NCBI GenBank assembly: GCA_018692355.1
Contig: JABHKE010000164.1
Coordinates: forward strand, 1 to 41,877
Source: Fidelibacterota bacterium
Lineage (GTDB): Bacteria > Fidelibacterota > Marinisomatia > Marinisomatales > UBA1611
Reading direction: 5' to 3'
Length of the DNA stretch: 41,877 nucleotides
Shown: positions 1 to 14,503 of the stretch, in pieces
How positions within the stretch are numbered: the stretch's first letter is position 1
Layout: each line of letters opens with the position of its first letter
Notes under the pieces: model-generated
Databases searched by the model: none
What the model saw: only the letters and a program-made list of their open reading frames with translations
What the model was told of the DNA's origin: nothing
Made by a program: the position numbers and the translations under genes

Positions 1-1099
1 AACCGCCCCACCATCTGCAATCGTCATGGCATCATCACCATCCGTATATTCAATTAAAGGTGTCTGCAAGGATGTAGAAGCAACCTGGGTTACAGATGTG
101 ATTGATGTAGCACCAGTTACAACTCCCGCATCAACATTAACTGTCCCATCCAAAACAATAGCTGATCCTGTAGCTGGGTTTAAATTTAATGCAGCTGCTG
201 AAGTCAATGTTATTGCTCCAGAAGATGTACTAATACTTACTGCTCCATCTCCCGCAACGATATCATCAGCAGCCAATGATGAAGCTGTTATATTACCCCC
301 TGAGATTGTACCACCAACAGTCAAATTGCCACTGGTGGTAACGGCTCCGCCATCTGAAATCGTTATAGCCAGATCACCATCAGTGTAATCAATTGTGGCT
401 GTCTGTAAGGATGTCCCTACAGATAAATCACCAGTTACAGATGTTGTTGGTGCTGTTATCGCTAAAGTACCATCCGTAGCATTGGAAATGGATTCTCCAT
501 GACCAAAGGCTAGATCGTTATCTGTTATTGTTAGATCTCCTGTAATTGTAGCATTACCACTAGTTGTAATAGCACCACCATCCGCAATGGTTATGGCTAA
601 ATCACCATCGGTATAGTCAATTGTGGCTGTTTCAACTGAGCCAGCGGTTTGAATGCCTGCACTAAATTGAGCTTCCTGGCCAAATGTAACTGCACCACCA
701 TCTGCAATCGTCATGGCATCATCACCATCCGTATATTCAATTAGAGGTGTCTGCAAAGATGTAGAAGCAACCTGGGTTACAGATGTGATTGATGTAGCAC
801 CTGTTACAACACCCGCATCAACATTAACCGTCCCATCCAAAACAATAGCTGACCCTGTAGCTGGGTTTAAATTTAATGCAGCTGCTGAAGTCAATGTTAT
901 TGCTCCAGAAGATGTACTAATGCTTACTGCTCCATCTCCCGCAACGATATCATTTGCCATTAAAGATGATGCAGTTATATTACCCCCCGAGATTGTACCA
1001 CCAACAGTCAAATCACCACTGGTGGTAACGGCTCCGCCATCTGAAATCGTTATAGCCAGATCACCATCAATGTAATCAATCGTAGCCGTCTGTAAGGAT
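1..1099. repeat. Long direct repeat, 687-bp period, inside the fibre-like gene
   Basis: Bases 1 to about 412 match 688 to about 1099 with few differences. The offset is 687 bp (229 codons), so reading frame is kept. The left copy may start before the window. The repeat encodes TIADGGA and TDGDLAI-type units. The near-identity implies recent duplication or gene conversion. Confidence 0.9.
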
Positions 1100-3627
1100 T
1101 CCCCTACTATAACATTATCCGATACATCGAGAGCACCATTTAGATCCACTGTATTTGCAGTAATCTCAACCTCTATATCTGCGTCAATATCTAATTGACC
1201 ATCAATAGTAGAACTTATCTTTAAAGCATTGTCCCTAAACTGCATCTGTCTGCTGTCACCTAAAAGTATACCTGTATCTTGGACATGTGTTAAAGTTACA
1301 TCTCCATCCTCACCTAGACTTAACACTGCAGCATCCGAAGCAAGATTTAAATCATCACCAATAGTCAAATCATCCGTAGATGTGAGCTGCTCAGCTGATA
1401 CTGTGGCAGAAGCTGTCACATTTCCCGTTACAGTCTGGGCTCCTGATGCTAATGTTCCACTTGTATTCAAATTCTCATTATCAAACGATATAGTTCCTCC
1501 AGAGTCTGTGATACTCCCGGTCGCTAGTATCAATGTTCCATCAATACTGGCCTGATCAGATACTGTCACATTTCCCGTTACAGTCTGGGCTCCTGATGCT
1601 AATGTTCCACTTGTATTCAAATTCTCATTATCAAACGATATAGTTCCTCCAGAGTCTGTAATCAAGCCATCACTGATACTCACAGTCCCAACATCTGCGC
1701 TGGATCCTGTAAGAGTTGTAAATGTACCAGCAACAGGAGCTGTGCCACCAATTATGGTATTATTAATGGTCCCCCCTGATATCGTTAAATCATCTGCAAC
1801 ATAAGTATCTGCTACTGCTGTACCCTGCCATGTACCTGATGCTATAGTCCCTACTTGATCAATTGTACTTTCATTCCCAGTTGTAAGTACTATCCCTGTA
1901 GTATCCGGAAAAGTTATTGTACGATCAGCGGTAGGATCTTCAAGTGCAATAGTAGTTTCAAAATCATCGTTAGTTTCACCTTCTAATACTATAGGTGTAG
2001 CACCAGATAGGGTACCTGTCGATGTTGCTTCAACTCCTGTTAAATTAGAACCATCACCGCTGAATGAATTTGCTGTTATAGTACCTACAGTTGTCAGATT
2101 CTCATCTCCAAAAGAAATAGAACCATCTGCATCTGTGATAGAACCATCTGCTAATGTAAGATTCCCAACCGTAGACCCGGTGGCTAGTGTTGCCCTACCC
2201 GAATTCAGCGTTCCCGTCGTAGAGATATTCACTTCTCCAAACGAGATTAAACCGCCAGAATCTACGATGTAACCATCTGCAAGGGTCAGGTTGCCAATTG
2301 TAGTATTGGATCCTAGTATTGCCCTACCGGAACTTATACTACCACTCGTGGATACATCATTATCTCCAAATGAGATCGAACCGTCTGCATCTGTGATGGA
2401 GCCATCTGCAAGGGTCAGGTTGCCAATTGTAGAACCGGTTGCTAGTGTTGCCGTACCGGAGCTTAGTGTACCCAATGTTGAGATAGCATCGTTGCCAAAT
2501 GAGATTGTATCTGATGATGACGTTATTGAACCATCTGATAATGTAAGGTCGCCTATTTCAGAGCCAGCCCCAAGGATTGTTACACCTGCGCTTAGTGTAC
2601 CTGTTGTTGAAAGATCTTCATCACCGAAAGAAATATTCCCTCCTGCTGTAATCGTTCCATCTCCCAAAGTTATATTACCAAGAGAAGACCCGGCTCCAGC
2701 ACTAAGTGTACCTGTTGTTGAAAGATCTTCATCACCGAAAGAAATATTACCTCCTGCTGTAATCGTTCCATCTCCCAAAGTTATATTACCAAGGGAAGAC
2801 CCGGCTTCTGCGCTGAGTGTACCTGTTGTTGATATATTTTCGTCACCGAAAGAAATAGCCCCACTATCATCTGTAATTGTTCCGCTGTCCAAGGTCAGAC
2901 TACCTACAGAAATAATACCATCAGCTACAAGGGCTGTCGGTATACCCCATTCTCCCGAACCATCACCATCAGATATCCATGACTGACCATTAGTACCTGG
3001 AGATGTAATCCCATATTCGACTTTACTTCCAGAAAGAACCCCATCTTCCGTCAAATCAGTCAAATTTGAATCCAGTTGTTGGTATACCGCAAGTGTATCA
3101 TATAATTCTGCACTAGTAGTATAACTTTCAAGAGAATCTTTCATAACATAAACGTCTAGGTCTGGCAGATTTATTAAATTGTCATAATTGGCGGTTTTTG
3201 CGTATCCTGACGTATCTGATAATATAGAATAGAACACTGATGTAAGTAGTTGCCGAGGTGATAATGTAGAACCTTCAACAGATAATTCAAGAAAAGCTTC
3301 TTGCGGTATAGTTGTAAAAGGGTTTGTATTGCCCAATACAGTGCTGATAATCCCATTGATGACGTTTACTTCCTGAGCCTCTTCCCAAATTGGGTCAACT
3401 CCATCTACACTATTGTATACACGGAATATTACTTCATAGCTACCATCTTCAGTGGGGCTTCCATCAGCTTTGGTAATTAATCCCTGATAAGAAATACGCC
3501 TTGGTACAGATTCAATGGTGTTATTTTCAACATTATTAATCTTTATTTTATTTTGTACTGGTCTAGATCGATTTTGACCAAAAACAGTAATTGTTATTAA
3601 TACGAGTAGCAATGATATTTTCTTCAT
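1..3627 (-). CDS. Secreted repeat-rich fibre/adhesin-like protein, C-terminus beyond the window
   Basis: The frame is open from an ATG at 3627 to the window edge (1209 codons, no stop), so the C-terminus is missing. Residues 1-18 (MKKISLLLVLITITVFGQ) look like a signal peptide. Residues of about 35-150 carry the module with RRISYQGLITKADG, EVIFRVYNS and LSPRQLLTSVFYSI. That module is common at the N-terminus of large extracellular and tail-fibre-like proteins of Bacteroidetes and relatives. The rest is low-complexity, beta-rich repeats (GDGTITAGGNISFGDE, TDGDLAITIADGGA) in Gly, Ser, Thr, Asp and Ala, with almost no Cys. It is the last visible gene of the secretin cluster, 50 bp after the PKD-like gene, so it may be a client of that machine. 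This link is inferred from position only. A phage-type tail fibre or a surface adhesin are the alternatives. The function is unknown. Confidence 0.85.
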   Translation of the reverse strand, partial: MKKISLLLVLITITVFGQNRSRPVQNKIKINNVENNTIESVPRRISYQGLITKADGSPTEDGSYEVIFRVYNSVDGVDPIWEEAQEVNVINGIISTVLGNTNPFTTIPQEAFLELSVEGSTLSPRQLLTSVFYSILSDTSGYAKTANYDNLINLPDLDVYVMKDSLESYTTSAELYDTLAVYQQLDSNLTDLTEDGVLSGSKVEYGITSPGTNGQSWISDGDGSGEWGIPTALVADGIISVGSLTLDSGTITDDSGAISFGDENISTTGTLSAEAGSSLGNITLGDGTITAGGNISFGDEDLSTTGTLSAGAGSSLGNITLGDGTITAGGNISFGDEDLSTTGTLSAGVTILGAGSEIGDLTLSDGSITSSSDTISFGNDAISTLGTLSSGTATLATGSTIGNLTLADGSITDADGSISFGDNDVSTSGSISSGRAILGSNTTIGNLTLADGYIVDSGGLISFGEVNISTTGTLNSGRATLATGSTVGNLTLADGSITDADGSISFGDENLTTVGTITANSFSGDGSNLTGVEATSTGTLSGATPIVLEGETNDDFETTIALEDPTADRTITFPDTTGIVLTTGNESTIDQVGTIASGTWQGTAVADTYVADDLTISGGTINNTIIGGTAPVAGTFTTLTGSSADVGTVSISDGLITDSGGTISFDNENLNTSGTLASGAQTVTGNVTVSDQASIDGTLILATGSITDSGGTISFDNENLNTSGTLASGAQTVTGNVTASATVSAEQLTSTDDLTIGDDLNLASDAAVLSLGEDGDVTLTHVQDTGILLGDSRQMQFRDNALKISSTIDGQLDIDADIEVEITANTVDLNGALDVSDNVIVGESLQTATIDYIDGDLAITISDGGAVTTSGDLTVGGTISGGNITASSLMANDIVAGDGAVSISTSSGAITLTSAAALNLNPATGSAIVLDGTVNVDAGVVTGATSITSVTQVASTSLQTPLIEYTDGDDAMTIADGGAVTFGQEAQFSAGIQTAGSVETATIDYTDGDLAITIADGGAITTSGNATITGDLTITDNDLAFGHGESISNATDGTLAITAPTTSVTGDLSVGTSLQTATIDYTDGDLAITISDGGAVTTSGNLTVGGTISGGNITASSLAADDIVAGDGAVSISTSSGAITLTSAAALNLNPATGSAIVLDGTVNVDAGVVTGATSITSVTQVASTSLQTPLIEYTDGDDAMTIADGGAV
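1413..1659. repeat. Exact 97-bp direct repeat, 150-bp offset
   Basis: Bases 1413-1509 are repeated without a mismatch at 1563-1659. The offset of 150 bp equals 50 codons, so each copy encodes the same segment of the fibre-like protein. Sequence on either side diverges. Confidence 0.9.
2207..2926. repeat. Tandem 43-codon then 37-codon repeats
   Basis: Using the plus-strand word agtgt (or a close variant) as a marker, units begin at 2207, 2336 and 2465 (129-bp period) and then at 2594, 2705 and 2816 (111-bp period). The 37-residue protein unit contains LGNITLGDGTITAGG and ISFGDEDLSTTGTLSAG. The shorter units look like the longer ones with six codons lost. Both periods are multiples of three. 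Confidence 0.85.
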
Positions 3628-3677: not shown

Positions 3678-4859
3678 TTAAGAAACATGTGGAAACCCTG
3701 GTGGTTTTATTGATGGCTCTTCAGATTCTTGTAAGAATACTTTATCTATCAATAGATATACTGCTCCCAACATGAGCGGATATTTACCTAACCTTAATAA
3801 CGGTTTACTTTTCATCTTAAATCGATCTATGCGAGAAATTTTCTTTCTAAATATTTTACCATCTAATATATTAGAAACAGCAGTGCGCAGGGAAGGGTCT
3901 AAACTGTAAATACCAGATTCACTTATTGACGATAAAGGATTTGAAATCGATTTAGTATCAATCCATTCATTATAATTTTTTGGATCAAATATTCTCATTG
4001 AGATGCTCCCATTAGCACCATCAAAGCTCCAGGATATGACATAGGATGCGTTGATAATTTTAGCATTCATGGCAGCACACGAATCTGAAATACAATCAAA
4101 TCTGTATCCCTGAAGTAGGTCATCAGCGTGTAAATCTTTGTTTAGATAAAATTCATAATCGAAACCAAGAGTCTGAATCTGATCCGCAATGATACTGTTA
4201 ACAATTTGAATATCAGCCGGAGTTATTTCATCCTGTACAAGGCCTTGTATTAGAATTCCAGAACTACTTTGGGAAAACATCTCTGAATCTAAAACAGACA
4301 CTTCAAGATCAAACAAATCCATCGATAATTGAACAGAATCGATTAAAGTATCATCAAGAACACTGGAATCAAAATACTCAATAATCAAGGTATCAGTATC
4401 TTCAAAACCAATACGATCTTTAACCTTTAGAATAACTTCTAGTCGCGTACCCAAATCATTATCCGCAATCGTAATATCTAATAGCTGTTTGTAAGTCTGG
4501 ATGCTTTTTAAATACGTACTATCATACGGTTTTACCGACAGTTCTGAAGTAAATTCATTTTCATTATTATATACCAGACCTGGAGCAAAAATCCATTCAA
4601 ATTTTAGTTTAGATCCATCGTTTATAAATGACCGAGATGCATCTAGTAGAATGGAACTCGTTGATTGGACCTTAATATCTGGGCCAGCATCAGCAACGGG
4701 CCTGTTATTTCTTCCGGAGTTGAAAAGGTTACTCTGTCCAAAAAGGATTGTTGTAGATAAAATACAAAGCGAAAATACTCTGTATAGTATATTTGCTATT
4801 CTATTGAGCCCTGTTATTGAATTCATTTTTATGAATATTTGCATTTGTTGTTGATTCAT
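3678..4859 (-). CDS. Exported protein with PKD-like and CsgG/TolB-N-like domains
   Basis: 393 residues. An AGGAG motif 9 nt before the ATG supports this start. A hydrophobic segment at about 25-41 (FSLCILSTTILFGQ) suggests export through a signal sequence or anchor. Residues of about 52-165 resemble a PKD/Ig-like fold (NRPVADAGPDIKVQS, LLDASRSF, LKFEWIF, ITIADNDLG). Residues of about 195-305 resemble the CsgG/TolB-N/LpoB-type fold. The clues are GILIQGLVQDEI, then a helix, then CISDSCAAMNAKIINASYVI, which matches the family pattern of a Cys pair followed by an alpha segment and a beta strand. A basic stretch and a hydrophobic stretch (YPLMLGAVYLLIDKVF) end the protein. It lies 12 bp after the secretin gene. 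Proteins with CsgG-like folds often act at the outer membrane, so a secretin partner or pilotin-like role is possible. Domain calls are by eye and the function is unproven. Confidence 0.72.
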   Translation of the reverse strand: MNQQQMQIFIKMNSITGLNRIANILYRVFSLCILSTTILFGQSNLFNSGRNNRPVADAGPDIKVQSTSSILLDASRSFINDGSKLKFEWIFAPGLVYNNENEFTSELSVKPYDSTYLKSIQTYKQLLDITIADNDLGTRLEVILKVKDRIGFEDTDTLIIEYFDSSVLDDTLIDSVQLSMDLFDLEVSVLDSEMFSQSSSGILIQGLVQDEITPADIQIVNSIIADQIQTLGFDYEFYLNKDLHADDLLQGYRFDCISDSCAAMNAKIINASYVISWSFDGANGSISMRIFDPKNYNEWIDTKSISNPLSSISESGIYSLDPSLRTAVSNILDGKIFRKKISRIDRFKMKSKPLLRLGKYPLMLGAVYLLIDKVFLQESEEPSIKPPGFPHVS

Positions 4860-4871
4860 TAGAACCTGCTC

Positions 4872-6530
4872 CTATGTGTCATTAGAGATCACTGTAGGAG
4901 TAATGAAGATTAGTAGCTCCCGTTGTTCCCTATTTTTATCATTGGATCTGAACAACCATTTAATTAATGGTATATCTCCTAATATCGGCACCTTAGAAGC
5001 AATTTCCTGTTCTGTGTCAAAGATCAGCCCTCCAATTAATAAGGTTTCTCCATTTTTGACCCTTACAGATGTATTCGTGGATCGCGTAGAAATCATAGGG
5101 CGCTGATCTTTACCTACAAACCCTATAATGGATTGAACCACCGCATCAATTTTCATACTTATTATTTTATCTTGATTGACCCGTGGCAATACATCCAATG
5201 AAACATTTACATGCTGGTCTTCATATGTATAAGGATTTGTTCCGAAAACACTTCCTTCACCTTGCGGGACAAGGAGTGGAATCGTTGTCCCGACCACAAT
5301 ATTTGCTGGAGAATTATTCATGGTTGTCACCTGGGGTTCTTGCAATAATTTTGTACTGCCATCATTGGCAAGTATAGATAGTATGGCAGAAACAACAGGC
5401 TTACTTAAAGTAGCAAAATTCATCGTTTGATCTCCCATCAATAAGTAGCCTAAGTCGAAGGAATTTGATGTATCCGTATTTCCACTATTAATGAGACTCA
5501 TGCTCTCTCTCAGGTCCCAATTGATACCAATGATTTCATCGTGTTTTAGGGTGGTTTCAATGAATTTTACCGCAATATTGATTTGTTCAGTTGGAATGTC
5601 CAGAGAACTGATAACCCCTTCGATAAGAGCAAAGTTAGTAGGTATATCAGTTACCATTAAAATATCTTTTTCTCCTGGTTCTACTTTGGTTGATGCCGTT
5701 GATGAAAGTGCTTTTATTTTACCTCTAGGCGTCAGTACTTCCTTTACTGCTTCAGATATCATAGTTCCCGTGGTATAATTGAGTCGAAACATACGGGTCG
5801 TTAATTCCCCACTCATTGTCTGTTTGGTGGTCATAGGCTGTACTACAATGATATTATCTTGCATGAACCATTCATAATTATTCACATGAAGTATTCCATC
5901 CAAAGCTGTTTCTAAAGAAACATCATTAAGATTCATTGTGACTTCACCTTGAACCTCATCTCCCATAATTAGATTAAAATTTTCCTGAGAGACTAACATG
6001 CGAACTACATTTACTAATTTAGCTGCTTGGAAATTCAAGCTAACTCTAGATTCTGGTAGTCGGGTAGTTGGTGATTGGCTGTGACGAGGTGATTTTTTCT
6101 TCCTATTTTTTACCCAAGTTACCTTTAACTTGTGCTTTTTATTTTTCCCCTTAGGACGCTCAATTTTTACTAAATAGTCTGGAACTCGAGTAAAATCCAA
6201 TTTCAGTTGGAGTATTTTCTTTATCTCTTTCTGGTTATTATTTCTAGGAATGCTTATAGCGTATTGATAAAGAGGCCCCTGATTACCCTTTTTAATGAAA
6301 TTACCTCGATCCCAGTTGAGATTCTTGAATAATATAGATACGCTAGGTGGAGCAAAAGTTTCAGTTGTAACGTATTCAAAATTCCCATTATTGAACTCCA
6401 TTACAAGTGTATATGAATTCTCTTTTTCGGTTGTATATATATCTAATAATTGGGGAATATCCTTACCAAACAACACAGATGCGTATATCAGATAGATATA
6501 TGGCTTAAGTATTTGTTTTAAGTATTTCAT
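4872..6530 (-). CDS. pilQ: PilQ/GspD-family secretin (outer-membrane channel)
   Basis: 552 residues with an N-terminal hydrophobic segment (YIYLIYASVLFG) as signal peptide. Domain order, with approximate residues: an AMIN-like beta domain 25-140 with a very basic end (KGKNKKHKLK, NRKKKSPRH); an STN/N0 domain 162-230 (VSLNFQAAKLVNVVRMLV); a secretin N1-type domain 244-315 (TRMFRLNYTT, ILMVTDIPTNFALIEGVI); and the secretin barrel domain 370-549. The barrel shows LLQEPQVTTMNNSPANIVVG, VRVKNGETLLIGGLI and the family signature VPILGDIPLIKWLF, ending in RELLIFITPTVI. The AMIN plus STN order is that of type IV pilus PilQ rather than type II GspD. The gene begins directly after the pilP-like stop, with GGAAGGA 5' of the ATG, so it is probably translationally coupled. 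It should form the outer-membrane ring for this cluster's product. Confidence 0.93.
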   Translation of the reverse strand: MKYLKQILKPYIYLIYASVLFGKDIPQLLDIYTTEKENSYTLVMEFNNGNFEYVTTETFAPPSVSILFKNLNWDRGNFIKKGNQGPLYQYAISIPRNNNQKEIKKILQLKLDFTRVPDYLVKIERPKGKNKKHKLKVTWVKNRKKKSPRHSQSPTTRLPESRVSLNFQAAKLVNVVRMLVSQENFNLIMGDEVQGEVTMNLNDVSLETALDGILHVNNYEWFMQDNIIVVQPMTTKQTMSGELTTRMFRLNYTTGTMISEAVKEVLTPRGKIKALSSTASTKVEPGEKDILMVTDIPTNFALIEGVISSLDIPTEQINIAVKFIETTLKHDEIIGINWDLRESMSLINSGNTDTSNSFDLGYLLMGDQTMNFATLSKPVVSAILSILANDGSTKLLQEPQVTTMNNSPANIVVGTTIPLLVPQGEGSVFGTNPYTYEDQHVNVSLDVLPRVNQDKIISMKIDAVVQSIIGFVGKDQRPMISTRSTNTSVRVKNGETLLIGGLIFDTEQEIASKVPILGDIPLIKWLFRSNDKNREQRELLIFITPTVISNDT

Positions 6531-6944
6531 TTATCCTTCCAGTTTAAGGGTTACACTGTGCTTATACCATTTTAGTAAAACACTATTTTTAGTGATATCT
6601 GTTACTTTGAAATTCTTAATTTGATCTCCTTCACTAATAATTTGTTCATTAATTATTGCTTTGTATCCATTATTAAATTGAGTAATGCCAGTCAAATTGA
6701 ATGAGTTAACGTAAATATTGCTGCGATTATGAAAGAAATCTCTTCCCCAGCTATTTACTGAAAGTTTGATGGGTTCCGAAGAAGAAGTATCAGGGATACT
6801 AAATTTTTCTGTTATGGACGAATTCTGAATCACCACAGGTTGGGATTTGCTGTTAATACCAGTGATTACACCCAAAAATAATTCCAGAAATAATGCCAAA
6901 AGAACTACAATAAAAAAGCCCAGTGTAATCTTTGCTCGTGTCAT
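6531..6944 (-). CDS. pilP: PilP/GspC-like periplasmic linker protein
   Basis: 137 residues. One membrane segment at about 6-28 (ITLGFFIVVLLALFLELFLG) leaves the rest in the periplasm. The C-terminal half fits the homology-region domain of PilP/GspC: SWGRDFFHNR, then GITQFNNGYKAIINEQIISE, then GDQIKNFKV, DITKNSVLLKW and a final VTLKLEG. In type IV pili PilP links the PilN-PilO dimer in the inner membrane to the secretin. Canonical PilP is a lipoprotein, but here a transmembrane anchor replaces the lipobox, as in GspC. The start codon overlaps the pilO-like stop (ATGA, 6941-6944) and the secretin gene follows at once. Similarity is weak and position carries much of the call. Confidence 0.75.
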   Translation of the reverse strand: MTRAKITLGFFIVVLLALFLELFLGVITGINSKSQPVVIQNSSITEKFSIPDTSSSEPIKLSVNSWGRDFFHNRSNIYVNSFNLTGITQFNNGYKAIINEQIISEGDQIKNFKVTDITKNSVLLKWYKHSVTLKLEG

Positions 6945-7495
6945 TCTTCCGCTCCACCATAGGTCAAATATTGCAACTCTGCAACAACACCCTTTGGATC
7001 AATGCTATCCAAATTGAAGAAACATTGTTGGAGATGAAGATGAGTTGAATTCTCCTCCAATATTTCCATGAAATTTCCAACATCGAGAAAATTCCCCGAT
7101 AATTGGAAATTAAGAGAATGACGCTCTAGGTCAATTCGAATATCTTCTACCGTATTATTTAAGGGTGGAAAAGTATTTCGTGGATCAATCTCTAAATTGT
7201 TAATATTCAAATCCATTTCATTTGCCAGATCACTCAAACTCTCAATTTCATTTAATAGATCGGGACCAGATATCCGATGCGATATTAAAATATTTTTCTT
7301 TTTGGTAAAATGTTGGCGGATATTTATAACTTCATCCATGATGCCTGTACCTGATTTAAGTTGAACATCCATGCTACTTAGTTTTGACTTAATTTGTTTA
7401 ATTTCACTTTTTATATTAATACTGTCCCAAACATAGACTGCAATTATCATCACAGTTAGTATTAACAAGATAACATATTTTGTCTTTTGGTTCAT
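6941..7495 (-). CDS. pilO: PilO-like inner-membrane protein
   Basis: 184 residues. There is a short cytoplasmic N-terminus, one membrane helix (about 7-24, YVILLILTVMIIAVYVW), a coiled coil (about 26-70, IKSEIKQIKSKLSSMDVQLK) and a C-terminal alpha/beta domain (about 75-180). Its LNFQLSGNFLDVGNFMEILE strand-helix is typical of the PilO/GspM ferredoxin-like fold. PilO pairs with PilN, and here its partner would be the PilN-like end of the 2110-residue protein encoded 6 bp upstream. Gene order (PilMN fusion, PilO, PilP, PilQ) is the standard one, which strengthens a call that sequence alone would leave uncertain. Confidence 0.8.
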   Translation of the reverse strand: MNQKTKYVILLILTVMIIAVYVWDSINIKSEIKQIKSKLSSMDVQLKSGTGIMDEVINIRQHFTKKKNILISHRISGPDLLNEIESLSDLANEMDLNINNLEIDPRNTFPPLNNTVEDIRIDLERHSLNFQLSGNFLDVGNFMEILEENSTHLHLQQCFFNLDSIDPKGVVAELQYLTYGGAEE

Positions 7496-7501
7496 GTTTA
7501 C

Positions 7502-10500
7502 CTATAAGACCAAATTAATTGAAAAGGATGTTTGCCCATTATTTATTTCTTGTCCATTACTGAAATCCACTATATCGAACCAGCCACTACTTTCCAATGA
7601 AGTACGGAAAGGAGTCACCAAAGTAGATGCCTGTTCTAGGTTTTGGTTATAAAACCCATTTAAGGTAATGATAAGTTTGGGATCTCCTGATTTTGTTAGT
7701 TTGTCCCACACTCTATCATTCGCGAGATGGCTGGATATAATTTTGTTTAGGGCCAATTCTGTAACTCGAAAACTATCAGGAATCTTATTACTCAAGTATT
7801 TGAGCATCGCCACCATGTTAGTAGACAGAGTTTTATCTTCATTAATGAGTTCCTGAAAAGTATTTGCTACCGAGTTTTGATTCTCAACGATTTCCTTTAT
7901 TTCTTGACGCATGGTTAGTAAAGAAAGTTCAGAATATTTGTTCGGAAGGCTCGCTTCCAGAGGCTCAATCTTACTGCGTTGCGCATAAGCTGCCAATGAG
8001 CACACCATTACCAGAACCAAAAGCGCATTCTGTAGGATGCGGTTAGTTGCAAAGTAGCGGTATTCTTCCTTGTGTTTAACAGGAAGCAGATTCAGTTTTG
8101 AATAAGGATCCATCAACAAACCCAAGTTGGCTGTATAATCCAGTTCAATGGTATTCTTTTTGATCATTTCATCTTTTATTGCAACCTGTTGATATTTATT
8201 TTGGATTCTGTCCAAAGAACGATCTAGGTCTTTCAATATCAATTCATACTCTATTTCTCTATCTCTAAATTCCTTTAATTCTTTTTCAAGGATCTCAATG
8301 CGATTACCATAGTTAAATGAATGTCCCTTCAGCCCATTGAGGCTTTTCTCTAAATCTTCAATATCATTTTTCTCTTTGGTGATTTGTAATTCTAATCTGT
8401 TACAAAGGTCTTCCATGTTTTTAATTTTTTTCTGGCTAATTTTTTCCGATTCATTCCTCGCATATTGAATTGATGATTTCTTTTTTTGGAGTTGTGCAAT
8501 ATCCTGTTCGGTTTGAATAATTTCATTAAAAAGTACTTTGGAGCGCGTTTTCATATCAGCCAAATCCATATAACTTCGCATTTTATTTTCTGGAATATTC
8601 CATAACCATTCATCTTCTGCAGTTGTAGGCTCTTGTTCATAAATTGAATACTCCAAAACCTTTTTCATGTCTTTGTTGACCCTGGATAACTCCTTATCAA
8701 GGATGGCTATTTCAACCCTTTTATCTTTCAGGTCTTTTTCCATATCTTGTAATAAGGTATCCAGTTTATTTTTTTCTTTCGTTTTTATTTCAATCAGGTT
8801 ATGTAATTCTTCAACACGTTCATTGAGCATGGTTTTGATAGGTGGATAAATATCCTTAATATGGTTTAATCGAGCCAAAACATCTTGGTGATGACCCTTG
8901 ACTCCTTCTATATTATTATTATTAAACTTTTTCAACTTTTCAATCTTTTCAAGATCGGCCTGGAATGTTTCAAGATCATTATCTATAAGTTTCAGAGAAT
9001 TTTCAATCTCTGATTCTTGACCTCGCATCGTATCCAAAGCCTCATTAAGATCATTGATGGTTTTTTCCAAGTGGGCTACATGAGTTAGAAGATCTTGGCC
9101 CATGTTAACCAAAGTTTGTAGCTGATCTTTATCATTCTTGATTTTTTTGTTCTTTTGGTTCCTTTTAGGTATTTTAGATATACTGACCATTTCTTGATTG
9201 GGAATCTTGATTTTGTTGTTGAGCGTTTGAATCTCAGATAAAGTATCATTATAAATTTCATCTAGTTTCCTAAGACTACGCTCTAGTTCAAGCATATTTT
9301 CTTTGATGGTGTGGTGATCTTCCTGATGTTGAACTAAATCTTTTTTATTTTTTTCCAAAAAGAATATTAACTCTTTTTCTTGCTCCTGAAATTCATCTTG
9401 TTGGTTTTTGATATCAGATTTTGTCTTAGTGATTTTAATTAAAACCTTTTTCAGGTTTTCTTTGTGACCAGAAAGGACCTGAGGGCTTTTTTCCTTTTTT
9501 TCTTTTAAAAATTCAAGTTGATTCTGGATTTTTTTCAACTCATCATCATCAGATTTTAATTGCTGCTTTAATTCTTTCATATCAATGATCACATCTTGTT
9601 GTTCAAGGGCTTCTTCAATGGGCCGAACTGCCTGATCGTGTTCATTTTTAATTATATTAATTTTGTTAGAAATCTCCGCTAATATTTCTTCAAGTTTGGT
9701 TGTGATATTTTTTTGTGAGCGAGCCTCTTTTATAGGGATCTGATCAATCTCTAGTTGAATACTGTTTATCTTATATTTTACATTTTTGTTCAATTGAAGA
9801 AACTCTATTTCTTTTTTAGATAACAAACTATTTTTTTGATCAAGCTTATCTTTCAAATTTTGAATAATTTTCTCAGCCGTGGCAATTTTCTTTTCTGCAC
9901 TAACAATTTTAGCCGTAATTGTCTTCTTTCGCCCTCCATGAGGCTTAAGTTTTGTAAGGATTTTTTTACTATTAGAGCGATAGCGAATCATAAAGGTCTG
10001 ATAACGCTTTTCAATACGCTCGAATACAAGGTTTACTTCAACTATTTCTTCCCGGTCTAGGACTATACTTTCATCTGCCAATGCTTGCGCCGCTGCTACG
10101 GGATCAACATCTTTCTTCAAACGAACAAAACCATCCTGTAAAAATAAAAGGTATGAATTTGATTGCTTCCGTAAAATATTCTTTTCCAAAACTTTATTCT
10201 GTTCTTCTGATTTATTCCTCTCCTTTTCTAATAGGCTTTCCCATTCACTCTTTTTATCTTCAAGAATATCAAGCCTTTGTTGTAAGGCGTGGCCACGCTT
10301 CAGATCACGGTACCAACTTTTTATATCCTTTTCCCATCCAGAAATCTGTGACAATTTTTTCTTTTTCTTTTCCGCAAGTGACGAATTTTTTCTATCCCTA
10401 TCAACTATAAGTTTTTCTATTTCTTTTGTACTTTTAGCCAAATTAGTTTCAATCGACTTCTGTTTTTTTGCTAGGGTAGTTCGTTCCTTCTTGAAAAAAG

Positions 10501-13500
10501 CTTTAATTGTTACTTCTTTAATTTCTTGAGCTTCTGTGATTTTTTTATTTTGTTCTTTTTGAAGTTTTTTTAGTTTTCTGCTTAAAACCTTCTGAAATTT
10601 TTTCTTTTTTTCTTCTGCTTCTGTAACCAATGGAATATATTGCTCATTCAATTCTTCTATTGCTTTTAATCCTTCTGCCTTCTGCTTCTCTAGCTGGGCA
10701 TAAGTGTCCTTGGTATCATTGATTTCTTCAATAACACTAATATCTTTTTGAGAATGCCCTCTTATCATCTCTTCTAGGTCTTTTTGTTGGATAATGAGTT
10801 GCTTACTTAAATCTTTCAGTATCTTGGATTTCTCTTCATGGGTGTTGGTAAGCTTGGAATTAGAATCTATATGTCCATTAATATTTATTTCACAAATCTC
10901 AATAGCACTGTTTAATCTCAGCAACTCATTATCGAGGATATTTAATTCTTTTTTAATGGTTTTTTGCTGAGGCTGAAGATCTATTATTTCATCCTCTTTT
11001 ATATTTAAATCCTTAATCATGTCTATGGTTTCGTGGTTAAAATCCACAACATCTAATATTTCCTGCAGTTTGATCTTATTTTCTTTCAGATCATTTAAAT
11101 AAATATCTATTTCTTTCTTTAGAAAGGAGAGTTTCCCCTCTTTCTTTTTTCTTTTTTGGCGACTTGCATTAACCTGGTCCTGCAATTTGTCCCCTTTTTG
11201 AATCAGATCCTGCTGTTCAATATTGACCTTAACTATATCTGATGTAAGTTTTTTGATCTCTTCTAAATTATTTGGAGTCTGTAAAACTACATCCAATACA
11301 GTTAGAAGCTTCCTACGAGTATCAAATCCATTGTCAGCATCCAAATATTGCGATGAATGATATTCGGCTTCACCAGAAACTATTTCTTCAAAACTTTTTT
11401 TTATCCCTTTCAATCGCTCAGTGTTTTGAGATAATAGATATTCTGCTTGTTGGAGTATGGTTACATCTTCTTCACCTAATTCAACTAAAAACTTTAAATT
11501 TTCCAAGAATGATTTTTTAAATAGCTTAGCCGTATTATGTACGGCGTCTTTTAAATACTCCAGAATTGCAATTTCATCATGACCCGTTCCTAACTTCATT
11601 GCCATTTCTTGACGGGTGTCCTCAACTTTTAATATTTTTGTTTGTAGTTCATCAATCTCATGTTCGTATAATTCTTTTCGTTCTGTCAAAGATATGCGTG
11701 ACTTGGCAGCCTTCTTAATTTGTAATTCATATTCACCTTTGGATTTCCTTCCGGCCTCTTCCCTTTTCTTCTGAAAATGATCTGTTTCATATTCCATCTC
11801 GGATATTTTTTTAATTAAATAATCGTGCTCCTTATAGTTATCCAATAAAGACTCACTTTTATTTTCCACTTGGGTTGTAACCGCATCAAGGTCGGCAGTC
11901 AAGGTGTCTTGACCATCCATATATTCAACCTTCAATTCTTTGAATTCTTTAGCCGTTAAAATTAATTTTTGATTGGCTTCGTCAATGGATTTGAGTTTGG
12001 AATTTTTATCGATTTCTAAACGCGTTAAACGATACTTGGCACTTTCTGGGCTTTTAGACATTTCAATGGCTTTCTTCTGCTCCTGGATCTTATCCTGGAC
12101 ATCTTTCAATTTATTCTCTGATCTTTTTTTGTTATTTAAAATGTAGTTTTCCTTAACCCTTGTCAAAATGTCCCTTTTAGAATCATTTATTTTCTTAAAT
12201 GAAGTTGTTGTAATAGAATTCAATTTTTCTACTGGATTGCCAATAGTATCACTTATTAGTCTATCCATATTTTTTATATGACTTCCAGGACCGCCAATAT
12301 ATACACCACCGAAAACAAAATTATTATCTCCTATGGCTCGTGGTATTATTGAAAAATTATTTATTGAATCTTTCAATTGATTCATCATAATGCTTGATAA
12401 TTCATTTAGAATTAACCTTGCATCATCATATGGGAATCCATCCTGCAATTCAAACTTATTTTTGGTTTTTGAGATACCATAATTCTCTAAGAAGTGCAAA
12501 GCATTGCTGCGCGCTTCTTCGGTTGGTAAATTTCCTGATGCTAATTTTGATAGACGGCTTATAAAATAATTAAGACCAATGTGAATATAACGTGACTCAA
12601 TAAGTTGATTTTCTTGTATTAAAACTATATGTGTTTTAAATCGATCTATATATATAAGGAGTGCATATCCATCGTTTTTCTCTAAACTATAGTAGTTATA
12701 TATGTTTTGAAGCAATTTTGGTATTGATGTGTTATACCGTGGTTGCAACCCGGAATCAACAAGAGTTTGATAGTCTTGATCAATATCACTCTTTTTAGAT
12801 GAATAACAAACAATAGCGTTTTTAACATTTGTATTATTGATTTCAAATTCCATCATGCTGTTTTCTGGTTCTATGGAATATAACTTTGACAAATTATTTA
12901 CGAGTAAATTTTCAAAATCATCCTTTTGTTTTTCTTCCGTTTTTAAATAGGTCATTTCATATTGATAAGAATCAGAATGTATTGCTAGATAAATATTTTT
13001 TCTTTTCGATTTTTCAATATATTGTTGGTATACATTAATAATTAATTCAGGTAACGTTTTGATTTCATGGTTATCAATTTTGATGGGGAATTGGTAATTC
13101 CTGATCCGATCGATATTAAAACCTTTATTATTTAGGGTTGCCTGCATGAATGTCACAGTGTTTCCCGTATACACAAAAGTCATGGCTTGGGTAATACCAT
13201 TAAGATTTAATAAATAATTATTTATCCTTTGAGATTTTATTTTACTTTTAAAAGGCTTTTTTATTTCTTCCTTTTCATATATTAAACTATCAAACACATT
13301 TGTAGAAATTCGCCTTTCTATTTGACCCCGTCTTGTTATAACACTTCTTTTATTTTTACTACCATGATCATTTACTGTTAAGGGATTATCATCATTTCTA
13401 CGATCATTACTCCTTCTCCTATCAATGATATTTCTTTTTATATAATTTAATTTTACCGATTTGTTATTTTCTAAATCCGTTATATGATTATTAGGATCTG

Positions 13501-13834
13501 TTATCTCTTTTGCTGATTCTTCACTGATACTTTTTAATGGTGATTTATTTTCTGTGTATTTTATTTCAAAGTGTTTTGCAACTGGCAAAAACCTTTTCTG
13601 TTCTATTCCTTTTACAATTTCTGTTTCGGATATAAATATTATATTAACAGCTAATAATTTTTTAAGGTGATAGTATATTTTATCTTTCGGGAAAGCAACA
13701 GCGTGGGCTATTTCAGAAGCTGTCTTTGGAGCATCTTCAAAGCAATTAATTATTTGCTTTGTAAATGGTTTATCTAAAATTTTAATGACACTTAAGTCAT
13801 CAATTTTTAAAACCTGTTTTTGTATCTGGCTCAT
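7502..13834 (-). CDS. Giant winged-helix / PilM-like / coiled-coil / PilN-like fusion protein
   Basis: 2110 residues, far longer than PilM (about 350) plus PilN (about 200). Approximate architecture: 15-90 is a winged-helix domain (FTKQIINCFEDAPKTASEIA, then KDKIYYHLKKLLAVNIIF), like ArsR-type helix-turn-helix domains. 135-176 is an Arg-rich linker (IIDRRRSNDRRND, RRGQIERRIS). 205-545 is a divergent PilM/actin-like domain (GYALLIYIDRFKTHIVLI; FVFGGVYIGGPGSHI; TIGNPVEKL). 550-1890 is almost unbroken Lys/Glu-rich coiled coil. 1902-1918 reads ANLGLLMDPYSKLNLLP, with LNLLP matching the INLLP motif by which PilN binds PilM. 1934-1951 is a membrane helix (ALLVLVMVCSLAAYAQ). 1952-2110 is a PilN-like periplasmic domain (LSNKIPDSFRVTEL, LIITLNGFYNQ, SSGWFDIV). 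The helix-turn-helix, PilM-like part and coil should face the cytoplasm. It is the first gene of the cluster, so it probably nucleates the inner-membrane platform. The DNA-binding role is inferred from fold resemblance only. Confidence 0.85.
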   Translation of the reverse strand: MSQIQKQVLKIDDLSVIKILDKPFTKQIINCFEDAPKTASEIAHAVAFPKDKIYYHLKKLLAVNIIFISETEIVKGIEQKRFLPVAKHFEIKYTENKSPLKSISEESAKEITDPNNHITDLENNKSVKLNYIKRNIIDRRRSNDRRNDDNPLTVNDHGSKNKRSVITRRGQIERRISTNVFDSLIYEKEEIKKPFKSKIKSQRINNYLLNLNGITQAMTFVYTGNTVTFMQATLNNKGFNIDRIRNYQFPIKIDNHEIKTLPELIINVYQQYIEKSKRKNIYLAIHSDSYQYEMTYLKTEEKQKDDFENLLVNNLSKLYSIEPENSMMEFEINNTNVKNAIVCYSSKKSDIDQDYQTLVDSGLQPRYNTSIPKLLQNIYNYYSLEKNDGYALLIYIDRFKTHIVLIQENQLIESRYIHIGLNYFISRLSKLASGNLPTEEARSNALHFLENYGISKTKNKFELQDGFPYDDARLILNELSSIMMNQLKDSINNFSIIPRAIGDNNFVFGGVYIGGPGSHIKNMDRLISDTIGNPVEKLNSITTTSFKKINDSKRDILTRVKENYILNNKKRSENKLKDVQDKIQEQKKAIEMSKSPESAKYRLTRLEIDKNSKLKSIDEANQKLILTAKEFKELKVEYMDGQDTLTADLDAVTTQVENKSESLLDNYKEHDYLIKKISEMEYETDHFQKKREEAGRKSKGEYELQIKKAAKSRISLTERKELYEHEIDELQTKILKVEDTRQEMAMKLGTGHDEIAILEYLKDAVHNTAKLFKKSFLENLKFLVELGEEDVTILQQAEYLLSQNTERLKGIKKSFEEIVSGEAEYHSSQYLDADNGFDTRRKLLTVLDVVLQTPNNLEEIKKLTSDIVKVNIEQQDLIQKGDKLQDQVNASRQKRKKKEGKLSFLKKEIDIYLNDLKENKIKLQEILDVVDFNHETIDMIKDLNIKEDEIIDLQPQQKTIKKELNILDNELLRLNSAIEICEININGHIDSNSKLTNTHEEKSKILKDLSKQLIIQQKDLEEMIRGHSQKDISVIEEINDTKDTYAQLEKQKAEGLKAIEELNEQYIPLVTEAEEKKKKFQKVLSRKLKKLQKEQNKKITEAQEIKEVTIKAFFKKERTTLAKKQKSIETNLAKSTKEIEKLIVDRDRKNSSLAEKKKKKLSQISGWEKDIKSWYRDLKRGHALQQRLDILEDKKSEWESLLEKERNKSEEQNKVLEKNILRKQSNSYLLFLQDGFVRLKKDVDPVAAAQALADESIVLDREEIVEVNLVFERIEKRYQTFMIRYRSNSKKILTKLKPHGGRKKTITAKIVSAEKKIATAEKIIQNLKDKLDQKNSLLSKKEIEFLQLNKNVKYKINSIQLEIDQIPIKEARSQKNITTKLEEILAEISNKINIIKNEHDQAVRPIEEALEQQDVIIDMKELKQQLKSDDDELKKIQNQLEFLKEKKEKSPQVLSGHKENLKKVLIKITKTKSDIKNQQDEFQEQEKELIFFLEKNKKDLVQHQEDHHTIKENMLELERSLRKLDEIYNDTLSEIQTLNNKIKIPNQEMVSISKIPKRNQKNKKIKNDKDQLQTLVNMGQDLLTHVAHLEKTINDLNEALDTMRGQESEIENSLKLIDNDLETFQADLEKIEKLKKFNNNNIEGVKGHHQDVLARLNHIKDIYPPIKTMLNERVEELHNLIEIKTKEKNKLDTLLQDMEKDLKDKRVEIAILDKELSRVNKDMKKVLEYSIYEQEPTTAEDEWLWNIPENKMRSYMDLADMKTRSKVLFNEIIQTEQDIAQLQKKKSSIQYARNESEKISQKKIKNMEDLCNRLELQITKEKNDIEDLEKSLNGLKGHSFNYGNRIEILEKELKEFRDREIEYELILKDLDRSLDRIQNKYQQVAIKDEMIKKNTIELDYTANLGLLMDPYSKLNLLPVKHKEEYRYFATNRILQNALLVLVMVCSLAAYAQRSKIEPLEASLPNKYSELSLLTMRQEIKEIVENQNSVANTFQELINEDKTLSTNMVAMLKYLSNKIPDSFRVTELALNKIISSHLANDRVWDKLTKSGDPKLIITLNGFYNQNLEQASTLVTPFRTSLESSGWFDIVDFSNGQEINNGQTSFSINLVL

Positions 13835-14503
13835 CTTATTGATTTTCTCAGTATTTAATTGAAGTAGAGCCAGTACCTAAACTGATACTGCACGCGATGG
13901 TATAGCTACCATTTTATGATTTGACTCCACATCTTAATTACCTCGGGTAAAGTAATAAATTAAATTTATCCTTGTAAAGACAAGAATTACAAGCATTTAT
14001 TCTAGTTACAATATTGTATATAATTGGATATATAATTAATTATAATTACGATTATATATAATATTAATTGAAACTGGATTTATTATTTAAACGTTATAAT
14101 ATTTTATTACATACTTAATACTAATATGTAATTAATTATTAAATGGAGGATTTTAAAACTCTTAAAGAATTATAATTCAGTAATATCTTTTCTAAGATCT
14201 TTCATTTAAAATAGCTCATGTAATATATTTATCGTCGGGGAAAGTGATTATAGTATTATTGGTTATTCATATATTCTAAAATAGTAATTAGAAAATATAT
14301 TCCTTTATGTTGCTATGAATACTAAAATATATATTGCTCTGTAATTTATTTTAGAGATAGAATTATAAATTACAATCTATAATGTGCATTTTATAAATCA
14401 TTAAATAAAAATATATTTTAACATTTGTAATATCTGCTTGGTATATAAAATAATATATATTTTACAATCAATAAATACTGATCGAAAGAGTTCGTGAAAT
14501 GTA
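13835..14503. promoter_or_regulatory. 669-bp AT-rich gap upstream of the secretin cluster; probable promoter region
   Basis: No convincing gene lies here on either strand. Bases of about 14030-14500 are extremely AT-rich. The 5' leader of the 2110-residue gene must start within this gap, because the ABC-F gene on the far side reads in the same direction and no strong terminator hairpin was seen after its stop. Specific promoter boxes could not be assigned. Confidence 0.5.
13897..13912. promoter_or_regulatory. Inverted repeat (6-bp arms) in the cluster's 5' leader
   Basis: ATGGTA (13897-13902) and TACCAT (13907-13912) flank a TAGC loop, 63 bp before the start of the 2110-residue gene. Next to it CAGTA and TACTG, in minus-strand reading, could form a second short stem over about 13870-13890. 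It may be an operator or an mRNA hairpin. No known riboswitch matches by eye. Confidence 0.35.

Follow-up and report, generated by a model that had tools for sequence, protein, structure and literature searches.

Platform subunits of type II secretion systems and type IV pili are compact proteins with a known layout. The LNLLP motif serves to dock PilM, and the partners of GspL are GspM (PilO) and GspC (PilP). In type II secretion, the GspL/PulL polypeptide unites a cytoplasmic PilM-like part, a single membrane helix, and a periplasmic PilN-like part (PMC10191384; PMC3815138). We analyzed a 41,877-nucleotide stretch of DNA from a Fidelibacterota (Marinimicrobia) bacterium (contig JABHKE010000164.1, positions 1 to 41,877; hereafter the window), in which one unbroken open reading frame (ORF) starting from ATG (7502..13834, minus strand) encodes a giant protein of 2,110 residues. 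Its domains follow the order winged helix, disordered Arg-rich linker, degenerate PilM, ~1,350 helical residues, LNLLP, one membrane helix, and PilN-like domain. All features of the giant gene and its operon given below lie on the minus strand.

The giant shares with GspL the arrangement of PilM, transmembrane helix, and PilN in a single chain. However, GspL has neither the winged helix nor the long insert, and the actin-like domain of the giant is nearer to PilM by profile and fold; T2SSL was absent among the Pfam matches for the window proteins and family members. With type IVa pili, the giant has in common the PilM fold, the LNLLP docking motif, and the PilO/PilP/PilQ gene order, whereas PilM and PilN are separate proteins there and the canonical DxG motifs are lost in the giant. 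The genomes of the window's family also hold a separate type IVa set of PilB, PilT, PilM, PilN, PilO, PilP, and PilQ, in which PilM and PilN are individual proteins of 352 and 197 aa (L098). A sequence-only reading of the window had implied that the fusion lacks a described counterpart. That implication is not supported, because GspL/PulL has such a fusion (PMC10191384; PMC3815138) and shorter PilM-PilN fusions of 650‒1,150 residues are common across the phylum. The new parts are the winged helix and the giant insert at the joint between PilM and PilN, and we found no description of a winged-helix or giant-coil PilM/GspL in the open-access literature. With moderate confidence, we read the giant as a platform subunit built like GspL, whose coil would loop out and whose head would bind DNA or a partner.

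The same ORF, ~30‒50% identical, occurs in more than 10 other independent Marinimicrobia (Fidelibacterota) assemblies, including the single-cell genome AG-404-J18, and the homologs in relatives comprise 2104‒2181 aa, or 2785 aa in one lineage. The sequence-only reading had called for a search for this architecture across Marinimicrobia and had named an assembly chimera as a finding that would refute it. An artefact of this kind, in which a chimeric contig or lost stop codons merged separate genes, or an error of annotation, is refuted by the identical single-ORF layout in these assemblies and by the near-constant coil span and syntenic flanks among relatives; no point in its favor was found, and we regard it as extremely improbable.

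The PilM domain (residues 206‒545; 12200..13219) is degenerate in sequence, and its divergent, actin-like character was correctly anticipated. A 21-sequence family profile searched against the PDB matched Myxococcus xanthus PilM (E 2e-26) and Thermus thermophilus PilM (E 6e-18), FtsA and MreB scored much lower, and the top Foldseek match of the domain was PilM 3jc8 (E 1.2e-17, target TM 0.65). FtsA and MreB were rejected as identities for this domain, since PilM was far better by sequence and first by Foldseek fold rank. PF11104 matches 14 of the 21 family members (best 7.7e-21), and the window member alone is not matched. Both nucleotide-binding DxG motifs are absent, with the canonical GLDIGRQ and LDIG/LDVG replaced by LNGITQ and IYIDRF; they are kept in the separate PilM of the phylum and missing in the fused forms. 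Judging from these sequence motifs, the PilM domain of the giant has probably lost nucleotide binding.

At the other end of the protein, the LNLLP motif (residues 1914‒1918; 8081..8095) precedes a single predicted transmembrane helix (residues 1933‒1951; 7982..8038), as had been read from the sequence and as is characteristic of PilN. The motif is kept after the coil in most relatives with a readable C-terminus. The C-terminal region (residues 1952‒2110; 7505..7981) is the weakest of the domain assignments. PF05137 (PilN) gives weak matches in five of the 21 family members (best 6e-4) and leaves the window protein unmatched, hhalign against canonical Marinimicrobia PilN yields E 1.7e-4 at a probability of only 49%, and the PDB profile search returned no match for the domain. 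The earlier assignment as PilN-like is supported by position, the profile evidence for it is weak, and we retain it as a modest assignment from profiles and gene position taken together.

The genes that follow the giant support the inner-membrane platform role proposed for it earlier. They encode a PilO-like protein of 184 aa (6941..7495), homologous to PilO genes of the phylum, one of which passes PF04350; a PilP/GspC-like protein of 137 aa (6531..6944), assigned by weak CdsD_C and T2SSB matches and by position; and a PilQ-type secretin of 552 aa (4872..6530; Secretin E 2.6e-46, IV_pilus_PilQ (TIGR02515) E 3e-63). The gene order MN-PilO-PilP-PilQ, with MN denoting the fused PilM-PilN gene, recurs in relatives whose contig is long enough. 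The homology suggests that the giant is a subunit of a type II secretion or type IV pilus-like machine, and its assembly may resemble that of GspL: a cytoplasmic pseudo-PilM, LNLLP, the membrane helix, and a periplasmic PilN domain would act beneath the PilQ secretin, together with partners resembling PilO and PilP.

Between PilM and LNLLP lies a helical, coiled-coil insert (residues 546‒1895; 8150..12199), so that the coil of about 1340 residues read from the sequence is borne out by the AlphaFold2 (AF2) model and by periodicity as an insert of ~1,350 residues. In the AF2 model, residues 700‒1899 are almost wholly helical, with breaks near residues 771‒833, 905‒919, 1053‒1062, 1239‒1245, 1300‒1302, 1543‒1567, and 1732‒1742, and most 84-residue blocks of the coil show a significant heptad-like periodicity of 3.4‒3.6 residues. 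In alignable relatives of the same form (hereafter giant-1), the span from PilM to PilN is 1,345‒1,359 residues and the coil is 32‒49% identical to that of the window, while the adjoining disordered linker ranges between 116 and 186 residues in these proteins. A second gene copy in genome G159, outside the alignment set, also has a span of 1,359. In the sister lineage L087, the span is 1,951 residues and the coil is weakly similar to that of the window; the constant coil length thus holds in one lineage and is not universal.

Insertions and deletions fall mostly within two AF2-predicted non-helical loops, residues 1543‒1567 (9134..9208), which holds most of them, and residues 1732‒1742 (8609..8641), which has small ones; the exceptions are two residues at 695, one at 1117, and 29 at 986 in one sequence. 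Conservation within the coil peaks at residues 751‒860, ~1225‒1300, and 1730‒1830. A conserved non-coil region of helix breaks within the first peak (residues 771‒833; 11336..11524), a conserved region at residues 1239‒1302 (9929..10120), and the loop at residues 1732‒1742 are candidates for three hairpin tips. The span and the pattern of insertions and deletions fit a structure locked in register, which could be a measured rod or back-folded paired arms. If PilM docking on LNLLP is kept, the coil must fold back, and the retention of LNLLP argues for back-folding over a straight rod. The sequence-only reading had envisaged a coil reaching about 200 nm if fully extended. The long helical insert stands, and a single 200-nm rod is doubtful given the LNLLP motif after the coil; the AF2 coil model, with a predicted template modeling score (pTM) of 0.31, favors neither geometry.

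Foldseek searches with the coil gave low TM values. The resemblance to SMC/MukB-type coiled coils is the generic one of a helical insert; TM-scores are ~0.1, the giant lacks ATPase heads, and the two are not homologous on present evidence. Three proteins of 1,917‒1,928 aa combine a winged helix and a giant coil without PilM, PilN, or a membrane helix (L092 1530‒7316, L093 3158‒8911, and L094 9968‒15721). A common origin of the window coil with these coil-only proteins or with the second giant form described below received no support above reversed-sequence controls.

The N-terminal winged-helix domain (residues 10‒89; 13568..13807), likewise expected from the sequence, was confirmed by profile and by predicted secondary structure. 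A 13-sequence profile (A6) matches PH1932 (1uly), a solved winged-helix regulator, over nearly the whole profile (E 2e-9), and the AF2 model has helices at residues 14‒20, 23‒30, 39‒45, and 50‒62 and strands at 66‒74 and 77‒84, the order expected of a winged helix, with a predicted local distance difference test score (pLDDT) of ~80‒86. For the window protein alone, the Pfam HTH_20 and HTH_5 matches are sub-threshold. The fold and family profile are of the ArsR type, and the stand-alone relative L055 passes PF01022 and PF12840. Like ArsR-like regulators, represented by PH1932 and by stand-alone proteins of 193 aa in the phylum, the giant has the conserved helix IYYH; unlike them, it lacks the effector domain of a regulator, and its winged helix sits on a membrane platform. 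The following linker (residues 90‒205; 13220..13567) is predicted to be disordered, with pLDDT <50 for residues 95‒199. It is Arg-rich in all giant-1 proteins, with 12 Arg in 116 residues in the window and 19‒23 Arg in relatives.

The head might instead be a docking domain that does not bind DNA and serves, for example, contact with the assembly ATPase or dimerization, and the coil would then be a scaffold for clustering or spacing the machines. In other PilM-PilN fusions of the phylum, this place is taken by a different head, which is an AAA_22 ATPase or a short motif of the LATNRLLDLLRAQ type, and the linker is acidic in the coil-less winged-helix forms (L046 and L047) and in the second giant form, as a docking role would allow. 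Against it, conservation is highest in the supposed recognition helix (FPKDKIYYHLKKL), which the stand-alone ArsR-like proteins of the phylum also have, and the linker of giant-1 is Arg-rich. We consider a head devoted to docking unlikely.

For the GspL-like platform subunit that we favor, LNLLP kept beside the membrane suggests that PilM would still dock there and that the insert would extend into the cytoplasm as a loop of coiled-coil arms folded back on themselves, not as a straight rod. The winged helix on its basic disordered tether may bind DNA, holding the chromosome for positioning of the machine or linking the state of the machine to transcription; if so, a machine of the envelope would be connected to the nucleoid or to transcription. 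Several observations weigh against this picture. The AF2 model of the coil has a pTM of only 0.31, and L128 and L116 gave no match to the LNLLP pattern. The winged-helix forms L046 and L047 have acidic linkers and no long coil, so the coil and basic linker are dispensable for a winged-helix platform. For DNA binding, the evidence consists of the fold of the head and its kinship. The window contig stops short of any ATPase gene, and ParA neighbors were seen only at the second giant form, giant-1 being without them.

In the second giant form, which belongs to another family, a gene for a ParA-type ATPase lies directly upstream (~66 nt). This neighbor hints at machine positioning. A more specific version of the DNA-binding idea holds that the platform subunit itself physically ties the machine to the chromosome, with the winged helix and Arg-rich linker holding DNA and the fixed-length coil setting the distance between nucleoid and envelope complex; we regard this version as unlikely.

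Upstream of the giant gene lies a conserved 53-nt leader with a 7-bp hairpin, dedicated to this gene (13918..13969), and next to it a promoter-like TTGTAA-N17-ATAAAT that is conserved in relatives (13964..13992). The block lies ~85 bases upstream of the ATG of the window gene and consists of TTGTAA-N17-ATAAAT, then ATTACTTT-N4/5-GAGGTAAT, then TGNGGAGTC. All 84 stem cells pair in 12 sequences, with changes on one side only, so that covariation is not shown. The covariance model finds one leader per genome in exactly the 12 family genomes that bear the protein and none in the other 21; genome G154 was left out when the model was built, yet it is matched among the 12. The leader also precedes the L043, L087, and L088 genes and was found at none of the other winged-helix forms searched, and Rfam gave no credible match for it. 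Either an operator or an RNA control element would fit, and the dedicated leader suggests tight control of the operon. With the near-fixed coil span, it makes selection on length and on expression testable.

Such a leader raises the alternative of a membrane-tethered regulator, whose winged helix would mainly repress or activate its own operon through the leader or promoter so that expression tracks the state of the machine, with the coil as a device to reach and tether. The presence of a single leader in each genome, nowhere but before the giant gene and in exactly the 12 of 33 family genomes with the protein, speaks for this alternative, as do the inverted repeat ATTACTTT-N4/5-GAGGTAAT in the leader core and the kinship of the winged helix with ArsR-type regulators. 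However, the spacing between the repeat halves varies by one base and G-U pairs are conserved, features that suit an RNA hairpin more than an operator in DNA, and the same inverted repeat was not found before other winged-helix forms. Autoregulation of this kind thus appears rather unlikely to us.

The N-terminal part of the giant is matched in 45 of 149 phylum genomes, and most of the matches examined lack the winged helix, being shorter PilM-PilN fusions in which ~20 residues separate the two domains. In the second giant form (L044 3147‒10898 and L045 10627‒18384), ~1,660 helical residues lie ahead of the winged helix, and PilM and PilN are adjacent. In a maximum-likelihood tree of PilM, the winged-helix proteins form a clade (99/98), as does giant-1 (100/98), and the second giant form groups with the short winged-helix forms (99/95). 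The simplest reading is that the fusion came first and the winged helix next, followed by two separate gains of giant helical parts. A platform subunit has thus gained a DNA-binding-type head and, judging from the tree and the domain order, acquired a giant helical part at least twice, between PilM and PilN in one clade and ahead of the winged helix in another. A third system of the window's family has an AAA_22 (ExeA-like)-PilM-PilN platform of ~960 aa with its own secretin (L097 8958‒11861, L099 5256‒8141, and L104 3647‒6529). This protein resembles the giant in its fused PilM-PilN and its added N-terminal module, but its head is an ATPase rather than a winged helix and it has no giant coil. 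One uncultured marine phylum thus repeatedly reworks PilM-PilN with different heads, namely a short motif, an AAA_22 ATPase, and a winged helix. When 84,980 species genomes were scanned with the winged-helix motif, a single short peptide of limited reach beyond the phylum, 18 related loci were returned; all phylum-named ones belong to Marinimicrobia/Neomarinimicrobiota, and a few are labeled only as bacterium or uncultured bacterium. Divergent winged-helix proteins of ~750 aa beside a secretin (L057 6938‒9172 and L060 7311‒9578), with PilM marginal and PilN unmatched, possibly represent another branch of the same design.

The window's family has the protein in 12 of 33 genomes, and its own genus in one of five, the window genome alone. 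The flanking genes are 80‒93% identical to those of congeners, so the contig belongs to that genus. Upstream of the giant gene are genes for an ABC-F protein and an MtaB-like protein; in G119, G120, and G145, the MtaB-ABC-F pair is followed by other genes and no giant operon. L109‒L112 show this empty site. The operon occupies the same place in several further genera of the family, which suggests that the locus is old and was lost in the congeners instead of having arrived recently. G159 (L116) carries the giant gene twice, its second copy being partial at the contig end.

Beyond the secretin gene, the window encodes a PKD-domain-like protein of 393 aa (3678..4859), conserved beside the operon in the family, and a large repetitive predicted surface protein of more than 1209 aa (1..3627), cut by the contig end. 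The examined contigs of the family end within this repetitive gene, and family assemblies break inside it (window 1‒3627; L127 1‒4309). In the winged-helix clusters of other relatives, receiver, GspE, GspF, and pilin-like genes follow the secretin (receiver-GspE in L083; receiver-GspE-GspF-pilin in L045). No T2SSE protein of PilT size was seen beside winged-helix clusters, and PilT goes with the separate type IVa pilus system. Far from the operon, TrpG of the window (40352‒40918) is 100% identical over 153 aa to TrpG of G135, a genome of a different genus (L112 18542‒19001), while the neighboring genes are ~70‒85% identical; transfer or mis-binning is possible.

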